64,000 bases of DNA. It comes from Microbacterium sp. (GTDB lineage: Bacteria; Actinomycetota; Actinomycetes; Actinomycetales; Microbacteriaceae). The number at the start of each line of letters is the position of its first letter. Within the stretch, counting starts at the first letter, position 1. The notes under the pieces were generated by a model. The model saw only the letters and a program-made list of their open reading frames with translations, was not told the DNA's origin and did not search any database. Made by a program: the position numbers and the translations under genes. The stretch spans positions 115,521 through 179,520 of the forward strand of contig NZ_JAPSLI010000001.1 of assembly GCF_031180975.1 (NCBI RefSeq), written 5' to 3'. This document shows, one piece after another, positions 7,751 through 54,178 of the stretch.

Positions 7751-8347
7751 TCAAAGCTGGCGGTCGGCGGCGTGCCGCGCCAGCGACGACCCGTACCGCT
7801 CAGTGAGCTGCACCATCAGGTCGGGCGTCTCCCGGTCGACGCCGAAGACATGGCCGGGGAAGTCCAGCTCGGGTTCCGCCGCGGCGATCTCCTCGGCCTG
7901 ATCCGGCGAGAACAGCCGCACCGGATCGCCCACGGCGACCCAGCCGATCGGCAGCACGGTCCCTTCCGGCAGCACGGCACGGCGCATCACGATCGCGTTC
8001 ACGCGGATCTCGCAGTGCGCACCGACCAGCGCGCCGTTGAACACCCGGGCGCCCGAGGCGAAGAACACCTCCTCGCCGACGGTCGCGCCCGCGATGCTCG
8101 CGAGGGTTCCGATGAGGGTGTGGTCGCCGATGTGCACGGCGTTCGCCGCGGTGGCCCTGATCAGCGCGTTCTCCATCACGATGACGTGCTCGCCGAGGGT
8201 GATCGGTCCGCCCTCCGCGGTGATCACGGCGCCGTGCAGCACCTGGCAGTTCGGCCCGATCTCGACGTCGCCGGAGATCACGGCGGTCGGGGCGACGACG
8301 GCGGTGTCGTGGATCCGGGGCCGAGCCCCGAGGTGCTCGTACAACAT
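7751..8347 (-). CDS. Gamma-carbonic-anhydrase-like hexapeptide-repeat protein
   Basis: A 198-residue left-handed beta-helix protein. Repeated hexapeptides (IHDTAVVAPTAVISGDVEIGPNCQVLHGAVI) fill the first two-thirds. Metal-ligand-type histidines are less regular than in classical gamma carbonic anhydrases, so catalysis is not assured; related proteins are called gamma-CA family or PaaY-like. Despite the resemblance to PaaY, it lies far from the paa genes. The C-terminal helix (residues about 150-198) is usual. TAGTCT sits 6 nt before the ATG. Confidence 0.75.
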   Translation of the reverse strand: MLYEHLGARPRIHDTAVVAPTAVISGDVEIGPNCQVLHGAVITAEGGPITLGEHVIVMENALIRATAANAVHIGDHTLIGTLASIAGATVGEEVFFASGARVFNGALVGAHCEIRVNAIVMRRAVLPEGTVLPIGWVAVGDPVRLFSPDQAEEIAAAEPELDFPGHVFGVDRETPDLMVQLTERYGSSLARHAADRQL

Positions 8348-8359: not shown

Positions 8360-8696
8360 GTCCCGCCCGATAGCCCGTGCGCAGTCTTTCTGGCGTGCGG
8401 TGTTTCTGGCGTGCGCGTGCGGAGTGCGCGTGACGAATCCCGGATCGACCGGCGCATGCCCGGCGTGTCGCGCGGCGACACGCCGTCGGGCGCGCATGTC
8501 GTCCGGGATCTCCGCCACCCGGTATCCCGGGGTCGGCGCCGAGGGCTCCCGCACCACGTGCGCTGCAGATTCCGGCATCCGCGCCACCGATCGATGCAGC
8601 GGATGCCGGAAACTGGCGCAGACACGTGACGACGAGCCCGACGGATGCCGGAAACTGGCGCACACGCGCGACGCCCAGCGCGGCGGATTCCGCCGT
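8360..8696. repeat. Repeat-rich gene-free region
   Basis: No credible gene. It contains a perfect palindrome at 8461-8485 (11-bp arms around CGGCGTGTCGC). It also has an inverted pair TTCCGGCATCCG / CGGATGCCGGAA at 8570-8611, and a direct repeat CGGATGCCGGAAACTGGCGCA starting at 8600 and 8642 (period 42). Parts recur elsewhere: 8571-8608 matches 53354-53391, and 8467-8481 matches 30583-30597. Confidence 0.7.
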
Positions 8697-11600
8697 CTAC
8701 GCGGTCGTCTTGACGGGCTCCGGGAACAGCGCGGTGAACAGGTTCCCGACCCACTCCAGCAGGTCCGGGCCGTCCGGGCCGGGCATCGGCACGACCAGGG
8801 CCTCTCCCCCGCCGACCAGCTTCGCCTTCGGGTACAGCCGCTGCAGACGCACCTTCATGGAGTCCTCGAAGCGCGCCGGGGCGACCCGCAGGTTCGACCC
8901 CATCGCCACCACGTCGGTGAGACCCGCGCGCGCGGCCCGGCGCCGCAGGCGCGCCACCTTCACCAGGGTCACGACCTCCTCCGGCGGCGTGCCGTACCGG
9001 TCGGTGAGCTCCTCCACCACCAGGTCGATCGCGTCGTCCGCCGCGGATGCCGTGGCCGACGACGACAGCTTCTGGTAGGCCTCCAGGCGCAGCCGTTCGC
9101 TGTCGATGTAGTGCTCGGGGATGCGCGCATCCACCGGCAGTTCCAGACGCAGCTCGGCATCCGTCGCGGTGTCCTCGCCGCGGAAGGTCGCCACGGCCTC
9201 GCCGATCATCCGCAGGTACAGGTCGAAGCCGACGCCCGCGATGTGGCCGGCCTGCTCCGCGCCGAGCAGGTTGCCCGCGCCGCGCAGCTCGAGGTCCTTC
9301 AGCGCCACCTGCATGCCGGAGCCGAGGTCGTTGTTCACCGCGATGGTCTGCAGCCGGTCGGCGGCCGTCTCGGACAGGGGCCTCATGTCGTCGTACAGGA
9401 AGTACGCGTACGCGCGCTCGCGTCCGCGGCCGACGCGTCCGCGCAGCTGGTGCAGCTGCGACAGACCGTACTTATCAGCGCGGTCGATGATGATCGTGTT
9501 GGCGTTGGAGATGTCCAGGCCGGTCTCGATGATCGTGGTGGACACCAGCACGTCGTACTTGCGCTCCCAGAAGTCGTCGACGACCTGCTCCAGCTGGTGC
9601 TCGCCCATCTTGCCGTGCGCGACCGCGATGCGCGCCTCCGGCACGAGTTCGGCGAGTTCCGCGGCCACGCGCTGGATCGACTGCACCCGGTTGTGCACGA
9701 AGAACACCTGTCCCTCGCGGAGGATCTCCCGGCGGATCGCCGCCGCGATCTGCTTGTCGCTGCGCGGCCCGACGAACGACAGGATCGGATGCCGGTCCTC
9801 CGGCGGCGTCTGGAGGGTGGACATCTCCCGGATGCCGGTGACCGCCATCTCCAGGGTCCGCGGGATCGGCGTGGCGCTCATCGCCAGGATGTCGACGTTG
9901 GTCTTCAGCTTCTTCAGGGCGTCCTTGTGCTCGACGCCGAACCGCTGCTCCTCGTCGATGATGAGCAGGCCGAGGTCCTTGAACCGCACCTGCTCGGTGA
10001 GGATGCGGTGCGTGCCGATCACCATGTCGATCGAACCGTCCAGCAGACCCTGCACCACCTGGCGGGCCTCCTTGTCGGTCTGGAAGCGCGACAGCGAGCG
10101 CACCTTCACCGGGAACCCGGCGAAACGCTCGGTGAACGTCTCCAGGTGCTGCTTCACGAGCAGCGTGGTCGGCACCAGCATGGCGACCTGCTTGCTGTCC
10201 TGGATGGCCTTGAACGCTGCGCGCACGGCGACCTCGGTCTTACCGAACCCGACGTCGCCCGACAGCAGCCGGTCCATCGGGATCGGCCGCTCCATGTCGG
10301 CCTTGATCTCGTCGATGGTCTGCAGCTGGTCGGGGGTCTCCGCGAACGGGAACGCCTCCTCCAGCTCTCGCTGCCACGGGGTGTCCGGTCCGAACGCGTG
10401 CCCCTTGGCGCTCATCCGCGCCGAGTAGAGCTTGACCAGCTCGACGGCGATGTCGCGCACCGCCTTGCGCGCCCTGCCCTTGGCCGCGGCCCAGTCGCTG
10501 CCGCCCATCTTCGACAGGGTCGGCGCCTCGCCGCCGACGTACTTCGACAGCAGATCGAGCTGGTCGGTGGGCACGAACAGCTTGTCGCCCGGATAGCCGC
10601 GCTTGGACGGCGCATACTCCAGCACCAGGTACTCGCGGGTCGATTTCACGGCATTGCGGCCGCCGCTGGACACCTCGCGCTTGGTCAGTTCCACGAACCG
10701 GCCGATGCCGTGCGTGGTGTGCACGACGAAGTCGCCGGGCTTCAGCTGCAGCGGGTCGACGACGTTGCGGCGGCGGGATGCGAGCTTCTTGACGACGCGC
10801 TGGTCGCCGCCGATCGTGCGCCCGTAGAACTCGTTGTCGGTGAGCACCGCCAGCCGGGCGTCCGCGACCTGGAAGCCGGACTCGACCGACCCGGTGACGA
10901 GGGTGGCGACACCCGCCTCGGGCGCCTCAGCGAGGTCGTCGACCATGCGCGCGGCGATGCCGCGGTCGCTGAGCACGTCGCGGGCGCGTTCCACCAGTCC
11001 GTGCCCCGACGCGATGACGACGACGCGCCAGCCCTCCCGCAGCCGCCCGTCGACGAACGAGATCGCCCCGTCGACGTTGCCGTGGAAGGACGGGATGATG
11101 GACGCGCCGAGGTTCGCGGCATCCGCGTCGTCGATGGCGAAGGGGCTCAGCCGCCACCACACGCCGTCACGGTCGCGGACGATCTCCCGCAGCCGCGCGA
11201 TGGAGAGGAAGTCGCCGGCGCCGAGGTCGATGGGCGCGGACGCCCCCGAGGTCGCCGCGCTCCACGCCGCGTCCAGGAACTCGCGGTTCGTCTCGCCCAG
11301 GTTCTGTGCGCGCGCACTGGCCCGCTCCGGGTCGACGACCGCGGCGGCCGTCCCCTCGGGCAGGTACTCGGCGAGGCTCACGAGCGGCCCGGCGACGGCG
11401 GGGAGCAGCGACTCCATACCCTCCACGGGGATCCCCTGGGCCATCTTCTCCAGCATCCCGGAGATCGCGGGGAAGCCGCCGACGAGCTGCGCGGCGCGCT
11501 CGCGCACCTCGGGGGTGAGCAGCAGCTCCCGGCTGGCGGGCAGCTCGACGACGTCGATGTCGCCGGGCAGCGAGCGCTGGTCGGCGACCGAGAACGCGCG

Positions 11601-12230
11601 GATCTGGTCGATCTCGTCGCCGAAGAACTCCACCCGCACCGGGTGATCGGCTGTCGGCGGGAAGACGTCGAGGATGCCGCCGCGCACCGCGAACTCGCCG
11701 CGCCGCGACACCATGTCCACCCGGGAGTACGCCCGTTCGACGAGGCTCTCCACGGCCTGCTCGAGTTCGGTGCCGCGTACTCCGACGCGCAGCTCGAGAG
11801 GAGCCGCGTCGCCGAGGTTCGCCGCCAGCGGCTGCAGGGCCGCGCGGACCGATGCGACGACGACGAGCGGGCGGCTGCCGTCCCACGTGGCGATGCGGCG
11901 AAGCGTCTCCAGGCGGCGGCCGACGGTGTCGGGGCTGGGGCTGAGCCGCTCGTGCGGCAGCGTCTCCCAGGCGGGGAAGGTCAGGATCTCGGCGTCGGCG
12001 AGGTAGCTGCCGAACGCCGCGGCGACGGTCTCGGCCCGGCGTCCGGTCGGGGTGACGACGAGAGCGGATGCCGGCAGGCCGGCCTGTCCGCGCCGCTCCA
12101 GGAGCCCGGCGATGACGGGCACGTCGAGTCCGTCCACGACGGAGATGTCGGCGTCGGTCTTTGCCCAGGCGAGCGCGTCACGGTACAGGTTCGCCTCTTC
12201 CAAGGCGCGCAGAATCCCCGGAACAGTCAC
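8697..12230 (-). CDS. mfd: Transcription-repair coupling factor Mfd
   Basis: Superfamily 2 DNA translocase that displaces stalled RNA polymerase and recruits UvrA. The 1177 residues are of normal length. The order is a UvrB-like N-terminal module, an RNAP-interacting CarD-like domain (around GDFVVHTTHGIGRFVELTKRE), the translocase with Walker A GDVGFGKTEVA and the DEEQRFG box, then the TRG region and C-terminal domain (RLELPVDARIPEHYI). The GTG start lies 6 nt after TAGACT, a hexamer that overlaps the end of the rarD stop codon. Confidence 0.97.
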   Translation of the reverse strand: MTVPGILRALEEANLYRDALAWAKTDADISVVDGLDVPVIAGLLERRGQAGLPASALVVTPTGRRAETVAAAFGSYLADAEILTFPAWETLPHERLSPSPDTVGRRLETLRRIATWDGSRPLVVVASVRAALQPLAANLGDAAPLELRVGVRGTELEQAVESLVERAYSRVDMVSRRGEFAVRGGILDVFPPTADHPVRVEFFGDEIDQIRAFSVADQRSLPGDIDVVELPASRELLLTPEVRERAAQLVGGFPAISGMLEKMAQGIPVEGMESLLPAVAGPLVSLAEYLPEGTAAAVVDPERASARAQNLGETNREFLDAAWSAATSGASAPIDLGAGDFLSIARLREIVRDRDGVWWRLSPFAIDDADAANLGASIIPSFHGNVDGAISFVDGRLREGWRVVVIASGHGLVERARDVLSDRGIAARMVDDLAEAPEAGVATLVTGSVESGFQVADARLAVLTDNEFYGRTIGGDQRVVKKLASRRRNVVDPLQLKPGDFVVHTTHGIGRFVELTKREVSSGGRNAVKSTREYLVLEYAPSKRGYPGDKLFVPTDQLDLLSKYVGGEAPTLSKMGGSDWAAAKGRARKAVRDIAVELVKLYSARMSAKGHAFGPDTPWQRELEEAFPFAETPDQLQTIDEIKADMERPIPMDRLLSGDVGFGKTEVAVRAAFKAIQDSKQVAMLVPTTLLVKQHLETFTERFAGFPVKVRSLSRFQTDKEARQVVQGLLDGSIDMVIGTHRILTEQVRFKDLGLLIIDEEQRFGVEHKDALKKLKTNVDILAMSATPIPRTLEMAVTGIREMSTLQTPPEDRHPILSFVGPRSDKQIAAAIRREILREGQVFFVHNRVQSIQRVAAELAELVPEARIAVAHGKMGEHQLEQVVDDFWERKYDVLVSTTIIETGLDISNANTIIIDRADKYGLSQLHQLRGRVGRGRERAYAYFLYDDMRPLSETAADRLQTIAVNNDLGSGMQVALKDLELRGAGNLLGAEQAGHIAGVGFDLYLRMIGEAVATFRGEDTATDAELRLELPVDARIPEHYIDSERLRLEAYQKLSSSATASAADDAIDLVVEELTDRYGTPPEEVVTLVKVARLRRRAARAGLTDVVAMGSNLRVAPARFEDSMKVRLQRLYPKAKLVGGGEALVVPMPGPDGPDLLEWVGNLFTALFPEPVKTTA

Positions 12231-51664: not shown

Positions 51665-54178
51665 TCAGCCCAATGCGTCGGATGCCACCGCACGCGCCTC
51701 CTCCGCCGTACCGGCGGCGACGGCGGCGTCCGCCGCGCGCACGCAGTCGTCGACGGACAGCGCGCCCAGCGCCAGGGACACCCTGCCCAGGGCACGCGGG
51801 GTCATGGACAGGCTGGTCACGCCGAGCCCGACGAGCACCGGCGCCAGCCGAGGATCCCCCGCGGCCTCGCCGCACACCCCGACCGGTGCGCCGACGGCCT
51901 GCCCGGCGGAGCCGACGGCGGCGATGAGGCGCAGCACCGCCGGCTGCCATGGGTCGTTCAGTTCGCCCAGTGCCGGGTGCATCCGATCGGCCGCCATCGT
52001 GTACTGGGCGAGGTCGTTCGTGCCGATGCTCGCGAAGTCGACGACCTGGAACAGCTCCTCCGCCATCAGTGCGGCCGCCGGCGTCTCGATCATGACGCCC
52101 ACCCGCGGCAGCCCGGCCGCGCGAGCCGCCTCGGCGAAGCGCGAGGCCTCGTCGACGGTGGCGATCATCGGCGCCATCACCTCGACCTGCGCGCCCTCGG
52201 ACTCGGCCGCAGCGGCGAGGGCGCGCAGCTGGTCGTGCAGCAGCGCCGGCTGACGGAGCCCGACCCGCACACCCCGCACGCCCAGGGCGGGGTTCTCCTC
52301 GTGCCCGGCAGCGACGAACGGCAGCGGCTTGTCCGCACCCGCATCCAGCGTGCGGACCACGACCCTGCGCCCGGCGAAAGCCGCGAGCACGGGGCGGTAG
52401 GCCGCGATCTGCTCGCCGACGTCGGGCGCCGCAGCGCGCCCGAGGAAGCAGAACTCGGTCCGAAACAGCCCGACGCCCTCCGCTCCGGCATCCGCGGCGA
52501 CCGCGGCGTCCTCCGCCCCGCCCACGTTGGCGAGCAGCGGCACCGGAGTGCCGTCGACGAGACGCCCCGGCGGCCGGAACGGCGGCGGCTCGGCGGCCGC
52601 TCGCGCTTCGGCGATCGCGTCCGCGGACGGCTCGACGCCGACCTCCCCGCTCTCACCGTCGACCAGAATCGTCGCGCCGTCGGGGATGCCGAGCGCACCG
52701 GGCACCGCCACCACCGCGGGCAGCCCGAGAGCCCTCGCGATGATCGCGGCGTGAGACGTCGGTCCGCCCTGCTCGGTCACCAGCGCCGCGCACCGACTGT
52801 GCGCGAGCGCCGCGGTGTCGGCCGGTGACAGATCGGCGGCGACGAGCACGAACGCGTCGTCGCGCTGCGGGATGCCGCCCGCCGCGACGCCGAGCAGCTC
52901 GGCCACGATGCGGTCGCGCACGTCGCGGATGTCCGCCGCACGCTCGCCGGTGCGGCCGCCGATCGTCTCGAGCGCCGCCGCCTGCTCGGATGCCACCTCC
53001 CAGACCGCCCGTGCGGCGGTCACGCCTTGCGACCGGACGCGCTCCGCCGCCTCCGACATCAGGTCGGGGTCGGATGCCAGCATCCGCGTGGCGTCGAGGA
53101 TGGCGCGCGTCTCGCCGTGGGCGGCCTCGGCGCGATCGGCGAGACGCTTGGCGACGGCCGAGGACGCCGGCGCGATCCGTGCGGCCTCGGATTCGCGGTC
53201 CGCGGCGGGCACCGTCCCGCCTGCGGGAGGCTCCCCGACGGGCGTGGCGAGACGCACCACCGGGCCGACCGCCACGCCAGGGCTGACCCCGCGACCGCGG
53301 AGCACGGCGCCGGCGGGCACCCGAGGGTCCGCGCGCGCGTACGCGCCGGCGTCTCCGGCATCCGCGCCATCGATCGACGCAGCGGGTGCCGTGTCCTGCC
53401 GCGCGTCCGGTGCCTCCGGCGTGGCGACCAGTTGCTCACCGAAGCCCTCCTCGAACAGCGCGGCGATGCGCGCGACGGCCGCCTCCGCATCGTCGCCCGC
53501 GGCGCGCAGCTGCACCTCGTCGCCGCCGCGGACGCCGAGCGTGAGCAGACGCGACAAGCTTCCCGCCGAGGCCTCCGGGCCGGCGGGGAGGCGCCGGAGG
53601 CGGACCCGCGCACCGCGGGCGGCATCCGCGATCAGGGCCGCCGGCCGGGCGTGGATGCCGAGCGCGTTACGCACCCGGACCGTCCGCACAACTTCCGGCG
53701 CGGCGTCGGCGGGTGGCTCCGTCGCCGTCTCCGGGATGCCTGGCATTGCGGCGGTGTCCCCGCCGAGCTGGGCGGCCTTGGCTTCGAGGGCCGAGGCCGC
53801 CTCGCCGGCGACCGTATCGAGGTCGGCGCCGCCGGATGCCGACACCATCGCCGCCAGCAGGCCCTCCACGAACGGCGCGGGCACCAGCCGCACCGGAACG
53901 TCGCTCGTCCGCAGCTCGAGAGCGAGCTCCGCGCTCATCACGGCCGAGCCGAGATCCATGAGCACCAGCACGCCGTCGCACTCGGCCGCGAGGTCGTCGA
54001 TGGCGCCGGCGACCAGCAGCGCATCCGTGCCCAGGACCGCCGCACCGTCGGCATCCATCCCGGCGCCCGCGGCGAGCCGCAACGGCACGGCGTCGCCGGG
54101 CACCATCTGCAAGGCGAGCTCGCTCGCCGCCTCCGCGAGCCGGGAGCTGTGGGAGACGGCGACGACCCCGATCATCAT
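51665..54178 (-). CDS. dhaM: DhaM phosphotransfer protein with full HPr and Enzyme I
   Basis: 837 residues. Order: EIIA-type domain (1-125, phosphohistidine His10 in AVSHSS), HPr (about 163-250, His176 in LGIHARPA), then a complete Enzyme I (about 292-837). EI features include His476 in GGPTSHAAIIA, FRTEFCFLGR, DAGADKPLPF and Cys769 in GVCGEAAGDP. E. coli DhaM has only a partial EI, so this version should autophosphorylate from PEP and phosphorylate DhaL-ADP without the general PTS. The HPr-EI linker (about 263-275) is encoded by a 38-bp dispersed repeat. The ATG overlaps the dhaL stop. Confidence 0.93.
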   Translation of the reverse strand: MMIGVVAVSHSSRLAEAASELALQMVPGDAVPLRLAAGAGMDADGAAVLGTDALLVAGAIDDLAAECDGVLVLMDLGSAVMSAELALELRTSDVPVRLVPAPFVEGLLAAMVSASGGADLDTVAGEAASALEAKAAQLGGDTAAMPGIPETATEPPADAAPEVVRTVRVRNALGIHARPAALIADAARGARVRLRRLPAGPEASAGSLSRLLTLGVRGGDEVQLRAAGDDAEAAVARIAALFEEGFGEQLVATPEAPDARQDTAPAASIDGADAGDAGAYARADPRVPAGAVLRGRGVSPGVAVGPVVRLATPVGEPPAGGTVPAADRESEAARIAPASSAVAKRLADRAEAAHGETRAILDATRMLASDPDLMSEAAERVRSQGVTAARAVWEVASEQAAALETIGGRTGERAADIRDVRDRIVAELLGVAAGGIPQRDDAFVLVAADLSPADTAALAHSRCAALVTEQGGPTSHAAIIARALGLPAVVAVPGALGIPDGATILVDGESGEVGVEPSADAIAEARAAAEPPPFRPPGRLVDGTPVPLLANVGGAEDAAVAADAGAEGVGLFRTEFCFLGRAAAPDVGEQIAAYRPVLAAFAGRRVVVRTLDAGADKPLPFVAAGHEENPALGVRGVRVGLRQPALLHDQLRALAAAAESEGAQVEVMAPMIATVDEASRFAEAARAAGLPRVGVMIETPAAALMAEELFQVVDFASIGTNDLAQYTMAADRMHPALGELNDPWQPAVLRLIAAVGSAGQAVGAPVGVCGEAAGDPRLAPVLVGLGVTSLSMTPRALGRVSLALGALSVDDCVRAADAAVAAGTAEEARAVASDALG
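53354..53391. repeat. 38-bp repeat within dhaM, second copy at 8571-8608
   Basis: TCCGGCATCCGCGCCATCGATCGACGCAGCGGGTGCCG matches the intergenic copy at 35 of 38 positions by hand alignment. Confidence 0.75.

Follow-up and report, generated by a model that had tools for sequence, protein, structure and literature searches.

The repeat at positions 8571-8608 of the window (the whole 64,000-nucleotide stretch of Microbacterium sp. DNA analysed here) is best read as a member of a family of dispersed palindromic elements that has a cognate gene, whose protein would act in tract replacement. We give this reading a probability of about one half. By computation, the elements form a family with a characteristic placement, flank one type of gene, occur as genome-specific dispersed sets, keep their positions across species, and show clustered tract changes. 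One widespread protein family is thereby tied by position to palindromic repeats. Palindromic repeats with a cognate gene are already known, and an unrelated protein as the partner is what is new here.

Structure of the palindromic element

The first-pass annotation reported a 38-bp repeat at 8571-8608 and 53354-53391, and these coordinates are correct, with 35 of the 38 bases identical. The 38-mer pattern occurs twice in the window versus 0 times in 100 dinucleotide shuffles. Gene positions agree with the annotation that one copy is intergenic and the other coding. The copy at 8.57 kb has a gamma-class carbonic-anhydrase-like gene (7751-8347, minus strand) on one side and mfd (8697-12230, minus strand) on the other, and the second copy is within dhaM (51665-54178, minus strand), in the linker between the HPr-like and EI-like parts. 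The half-copies said to follow as direct repeats near 8.6 kb are also present, as GGATGCCGGAAACTGGCG occurs again 42 bp downstream.

The full element is longer than the 38-mer, which is its core (8571-8608, by sequence match), and measures about 80 bp. It spans 8551-8630, where the covariance model matches from end to end (contig C13, 124071-124150, of the genome that contains the window, G000; E 3.2e-17; 45-copy alignment). The element comprises four GCNNCA half-sites, outer left, inner left, inner right' and outer right', around the centre CATCGATCGATG. The motif is thus present four times per element, in two direct and two inverted orientations about a palindromic centre. The consensus of the aligned copies can be sketched as TCACACGTGcGC[NN]CAgTTTCCG-GCATCCGC[NN]CATCGATCGATG[NN]GCGGATGC-CGGAAACTG[NN]GCGCACACGTGTGA. 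Most copies have a mismatch at the inner NN pair, with GC on one side in most. This one-sided GC served to orient the copies, and counts of element polarity are therefore not independent evidence.

Extra half-units trail some copies with a period of 41-43 bp, as at C13:435805-436070 in G000. In the window, an extra right half-unit, GGATGCCGGAAACTGGCGCACACGCGCGAC, is found at 8643-8672 (plus strand), repeating the first in direct orientation 42 bp further on. Five tandem element copies with a period of about 166 bp occur next to serC in another genome (G047, C1:1793789-1794365, loci L176/L195).

The second window copy, inside the dhaM linker, spans 53334-53413, and its core and outer GCNNCA sites are recognisable but decayed. 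The linker is hypervariable in length across relatives. Since it measures 35-66 aa in these and 55 aa in G000, no insertion can be claimed for this copy, and a clean insertion was rejected.

Distribution and placement

The genome-wide search that the annotation proposed found further copies, both in G000 and in its relatives, the absence of which would have refuted the annotation's idea. The foldable repeat is a real dispersed family. A 160-bp query gives 38 alignments in G000 at E<=1e-3, which fall in 17 places including the window's two. The core pattern, with up to three mismatches, has 17 matches per strand versus 0 for a reversed-pattern control. The half-site GGATGCCGGAAACTGGCG, again with up to three mismatches, has 70 matches versus 2 in the reversed control, the weaker ones including common coding words. 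Across the genus, the covariance model (E<=1e-3) detects the element in 80 of 369 Microbacterium genomes. The scan scores at most 12 candidates per genome over both strands, and its copy numbers are therefore minimum values in which each strand is counted. The carriers identified by name are Microbacterium aerolatum NBRC 103071 and the MAG RM46_bin.026.

The 41 classifiable copies comprise 20 convergent, 1 divergent and 20 codirectional placements, mostly at 3' ends after stop codons. The convergent excess is modest (p 0.03 against the window's own intergenic gaps of at least 80 bp, 4 of 22 of which are convergent), and the shortage of divergent sites is the clearer signal.

Element positions are largely inherited. 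Judged by the flanking proteins, G000 and its relative G030 have the same placement at parE/parC, purD, a response regulator/glycosylase pair, guaB and upp, and a further genome (G033) has the G000 placements at guaB and upp. The site at the 3' end of mfd is occupied in both G000 and G030. The mfd interval of other species is without the element, and several hold other palindromes there. Divergent members retain the palindrome and have different arm letters. A dedicated recombinase beside the copies was considered and rejected, as the neighbours in G000 are ordinary housekeeping genes, except for the gene at guaB.

Partner gene and its flanking palindromes

In many carriers, a pair of elements at guaB, spaced about 1.2 kb apart, encloses a single gene. 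In G000 this gene lies at the 3' end of guaB (C11:113634-114614), encodes 327 aa, and is flanked by two elements. A tblastn search of the genus separates a close family (family A), with an identity of about 41% or more in 68 genomes, from paralogues at 31-39%, the boundary being set at a visible gap in the genus identities.

The association between gene and palindrome is strong. A close-family gene is present in 34 of the 49 genomes with at least four element matches versus 34 of 320 others. The Fisher p of 7e-18 is uncorrected for phylogeny and too small because species share ancestry, and several copy-number thresholds were tried for this co-occurrence. Fifteen genomes with at least four element matches are without an intact gene, and 26 gene carriers are without a model-recognised element.

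Physical linkage is stronger evidence than co-occurrence. The upstream flank aligns with the downstream one at SW>=20 in 43 of 58 close-family genes, the other 15 being without matching flanks, in 18 of 30 paralogues, and in 0 of 45 window genes. When flanks are swapped between genomes, 4 of 88 paralogue pairs and 37 of 170 family A pairs match, the second rate being raised by an element family that several of these genomes have in common. Among homologues from other genera of the order, 22 of 37 had matching flanks (a count that includes L350, with a long tandem repeat region, and L347, with no palindrome score) versus 0 of 144 swapped pairs. The cut-offs (flanks at SW>=20, >=25 and >=24; palindrome score >=13) were chosen by eye in the course of the exploration.

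Four further family genes in G000, at C10:180483-181427, C10:225735-226598, C14:35959-36906 and C17:23680-24633, each have their own matching palindromes (4/4). In many flanking elements a single motif recurs in both direct and inverted orientation. The palindrome on the upstream side is about 150-300 bp from the gene start, and the other follows the gene. Sampling of the order found the protein superfamily in 135 of 198 genomes and in 52 of 72 genera. In several family genes (L243, L250, L258 and others) the match is interrupted or ended by an in-frame stop, and some of these may be pseudogenes. Searches of the open-access literature returned no description of this association of repeat and gene.

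Partner protein and proposed mechanism

The partner protein is about 325 aa long and has an AbiEi-like N-terminus. PADLOC AbiEi models recognise 35 of the 39 sequences in the alignment (best 1.7e-18), with a match spanning residues 24-149 in the G000 protein, and Pfam AbiEi models match the family only weakly. The C-terminal part beyond the AbiEi-like region comprises about 170 aa. The residues D239, E250, D252, G253, K256, Y257, E275, K276 and R278 are invariant in all 39 sequences, and by this residue pattern the C-terminal part is probably PD-(D/E)XK nuclease-like. The acidic and lysine residues among them, D239, E250, D252, K256, E275 and K276, would correspond to the active-site residues of that superfamily. 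Pfam, NCBIfam and PDB gave no match for a nuclease fold in this part. No viral relatives of the protein were found. The neighbours of the partner gene at guaB encode GuaB and a membrane protein, and no nucleotidyltransferase (AbiEii-like) gene is among them.

AbiEi-family antitoxins bind inverted repeats and autoregulate, and the AbiEi-like protein Rv2827c binds four inverted repeats (PMC7319586). By this precedent, binding of the four-site palindrome by the AbiEi-like N-terminal part is plausible. The PD-(D/E)XK-like C-terminal part would nick or cut the DNA at the element, and repair from another copy would replace tracts. Such replacement would spread and homogenise the letters of the copies within a genome, their positions being largely inherited. 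Recurring conversion would account for the fact that, where species share an element at one gene end, each copy has the letters of its own genome. Binding, nuclease activity, and a part of the protein in conversion or in spread to new sites are thus what we infer as the mechanism.

For a large group of AbiEi-like proteins whose C-terminal part is uncharacterised, this proposal supplies a concrete hypothesis of binding and cleavage. A single protein and a single DNA fragment would be enough to test where many of the intergenic palindromes of these bacteria come from. If binding and cutting were borne out, the system would be categorically new. More tentatively, and at somewhat less than even odds, a repeat-plus-enzyme system unrelated to REP/RAYT may extend across this actinobacterial order, with AbiEi-like/nuclease-like proteins, four-site palindromes, sets of their own in each lineage, and conversion by cutting and repair without a classical transposase.

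Genome-specific sets and change in place

Ten palindromes, each from a different genome, were combined into a single query for a search of the same ten genomes, and each genome matches only its own segment among the matches listed. Eight of the ten genomes have dispersed copies beyond the flanking two, and G230 and G043 have more than 50 strand-counted matches each. G243 has the flanking pair only, and G150 has one copy only. In the close family, closer proteins go with closer palindromes (Mantel r 0.25, 0 of 2000 permutations), a link that is visible mainly above 60% protein identity.

At the compared locus, G267 and G268 have 98.9% identity. They carry a related palindrome family, not the window's own. 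Ten copies were found in each, and their coordinates pair one to one. The copy upstream of the gene has 13 differences in 35 bp. Another has 12 differences in its central 120 bp, packed in about 50 bp, versus 0.6% in the flanks. The other compared copies have 0-1 central differences, with about 1% change elsewhere. The packed differences suggest tract replacement, which may have come about by gene conversion or by template switching at the palindrome. No copy was identified as the donor of the replaced tracts.

The annotation had suggested a possible third small mobile element family. A dispersed family is indeed present, and active mobility is not borne out, since positions recur across species and all ten copies found in G267 and G268 are common to both. 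No insertion polymorphism was seen among the ten copies of this one close pair. Target duplications were not identified either, the empty intervals at mfd and guaB being too diverged to define ends.

These results bear on the strongest alternative, which we consider doubtful and yet worth serious attention. Here the gene and its two palindromes would be a small transposon of an unrecognised type, with the palindromes as its ends and the protein as its transposase, and the dispersed palindromes would be MITE-like derivatives left or mobilised by it. Matching repeats bracket the gene in many genomes, and the gene lies at guaB in many species and elsewhere in others, for example with two copies in G017. 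The guaB 3' interval is without the gene in many species, and one copy of the element lies inside dhaM. All of this suits a transposon, which also explains the origin of new sites better than the conversion model, which gives no account of it. Against a transposon, different species have family copies at orthologous gene ends, the G267/G268 pair has all ten found copies in common, no target duplication was identified, and most copies are sited like REPs and not randomly.

MITEs and IS ends are small dispersed repeats that match the sequences bracketing a coding unit. The elements described here are similar in that small dispersed repeats match those that bracket a gene. In contrast, neither a target duplication nor a fresh insertion was found, and copies are often at orthologous places.

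Comparison with AbiE systems

The AbiE type IV toxin-antitoxin system and Rv2827c (PMC7319586, PMC3985639) share with the present family the AbiEi-like N-terminal part and the inverted repeats upstream of the gene. Four repeats are bound by one protein in Rv2827c, and the same is predicted here. The present family differs in that its repeats lie on both sides of the gene and are dispersed in the genome, in its extra C-terminal part of about 170 aa, and in that no AbiEii-like gene is seen beside the family gene at guaB.

This likeness raises an unlikely explanation, less probable than a transposon, in which the AbiEi-like protein would repress its own gene from the flanking palindrome, and the dispersed palindromes would serve other genes as operators or as control sites at their 3' ends. 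AbiEi-family antitoxins autoregulate through inverted repeats (PMC7319586), one palindrome precedes the gene start by about 150-300 bp, and copies are retained at the same gene ends in related species. However, the dispersed copies are at 3' ends and not at promoters (1 of 41 divergent), a second palindrome lies downstream of the gene, and tandem arrays of up to five copies and the dhaM copy are unlike operators.

Hairpins and REP-like repeats

It is improbable that the elements are ordinary terminators, or hairpins that stabilise 3' ends, with selection on RNA as the cause of their likeness. The elements can form long hairpins, their placement is convergent and at 3' ends, and divergent members keep the palindrome despite other arm letters, as expected of such structures. 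In contrast, the extra covariation is weak (84.7% of cells paired versus 83.8% in shuffles, and 12 double-changed pairs versus 7.7), and the inner NN is mismatched in most copies. An RNA hairpin under selection was rejected as the main explanation, as covariation barely exceeds the shuffles. Terminators also leave the palindromes around one protein family, the genome-specific letters, and the copy in a coding linker unexplained. Rfam gave no match above threshold, and a mir-3130 hit far under the cut-off was taken as chance.

REP, BIME and REPIN sequences with RAYT, and GTAG REPs, are intergenic palindromes that form species-specific families and flank their cognate gene (PMC3733652). The elements here likewise are short palindromes, mainly intergenic, at convergent or unidirectional sites, with occasional copies in genes, and they too form species-specific families that flank a cognate gene. 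They differ in having no HUH/Y1 transposase and an AbiEi-like partner in its place, and in consisting of about 80 bp with four motifs, no GTAG or CGTC tag, a conserved centre, and variable arms. They are thus like REP/RAYT in their working and are not a member of it, because both the tag and the tyrosine transposase are missing. The annotation had pointed to a REP-associated tyrosine transposase (RAYT, PF01797). The search for it has 0 matches in G000 and does find it in 5 of 14 control genomes. The REP-like repeats described as CGTC-tagged or untagged (PMC3733652) are likewise palindromic without a linked tyrosine transposase, and the present element differs from these in its linked protein family and in lacking a CGTC tag.

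It is very improbable that the elements are a REP/BIME family whose RAYT either falls outside the searched family or has been lost from G000, even though size, placement and species-specific families are REP-like (PMC3733652). G000 has no PF01797 match, the repeats flank the genes of another protein family in the way that REPs flank RAYT genes, and the 45-copy alignment has no conserved GTAG or CGTC end.

Other repeats and words in the window

A different palindrome adjoins the element just to its left, at 8437-8509. It reads ATCCCGGAT...GGCGTGTCGCG/GGCGACACGCC...TCCGGGAT and may be another repeat family of the same architecture. Its core is GGCGTGTCGC, and similar GGCGTGTCGC cores are found at the same interval in other species.

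The most over-represented hexamer in the coding sequence of the window is GGATGC/GCATCC, with 161 occurrences versus 61.5 expected from synonymous-codon shuffles. A DNA-uptake-like role of this word was considered and rejected. GGATGC does not define the element, because the elements of other genomes have other letters there. The excess is present in all frames and has no strand bias. Before TCC, the alanine codon is GCA in 31 of 61 cases, versus about 7% overall in the window.
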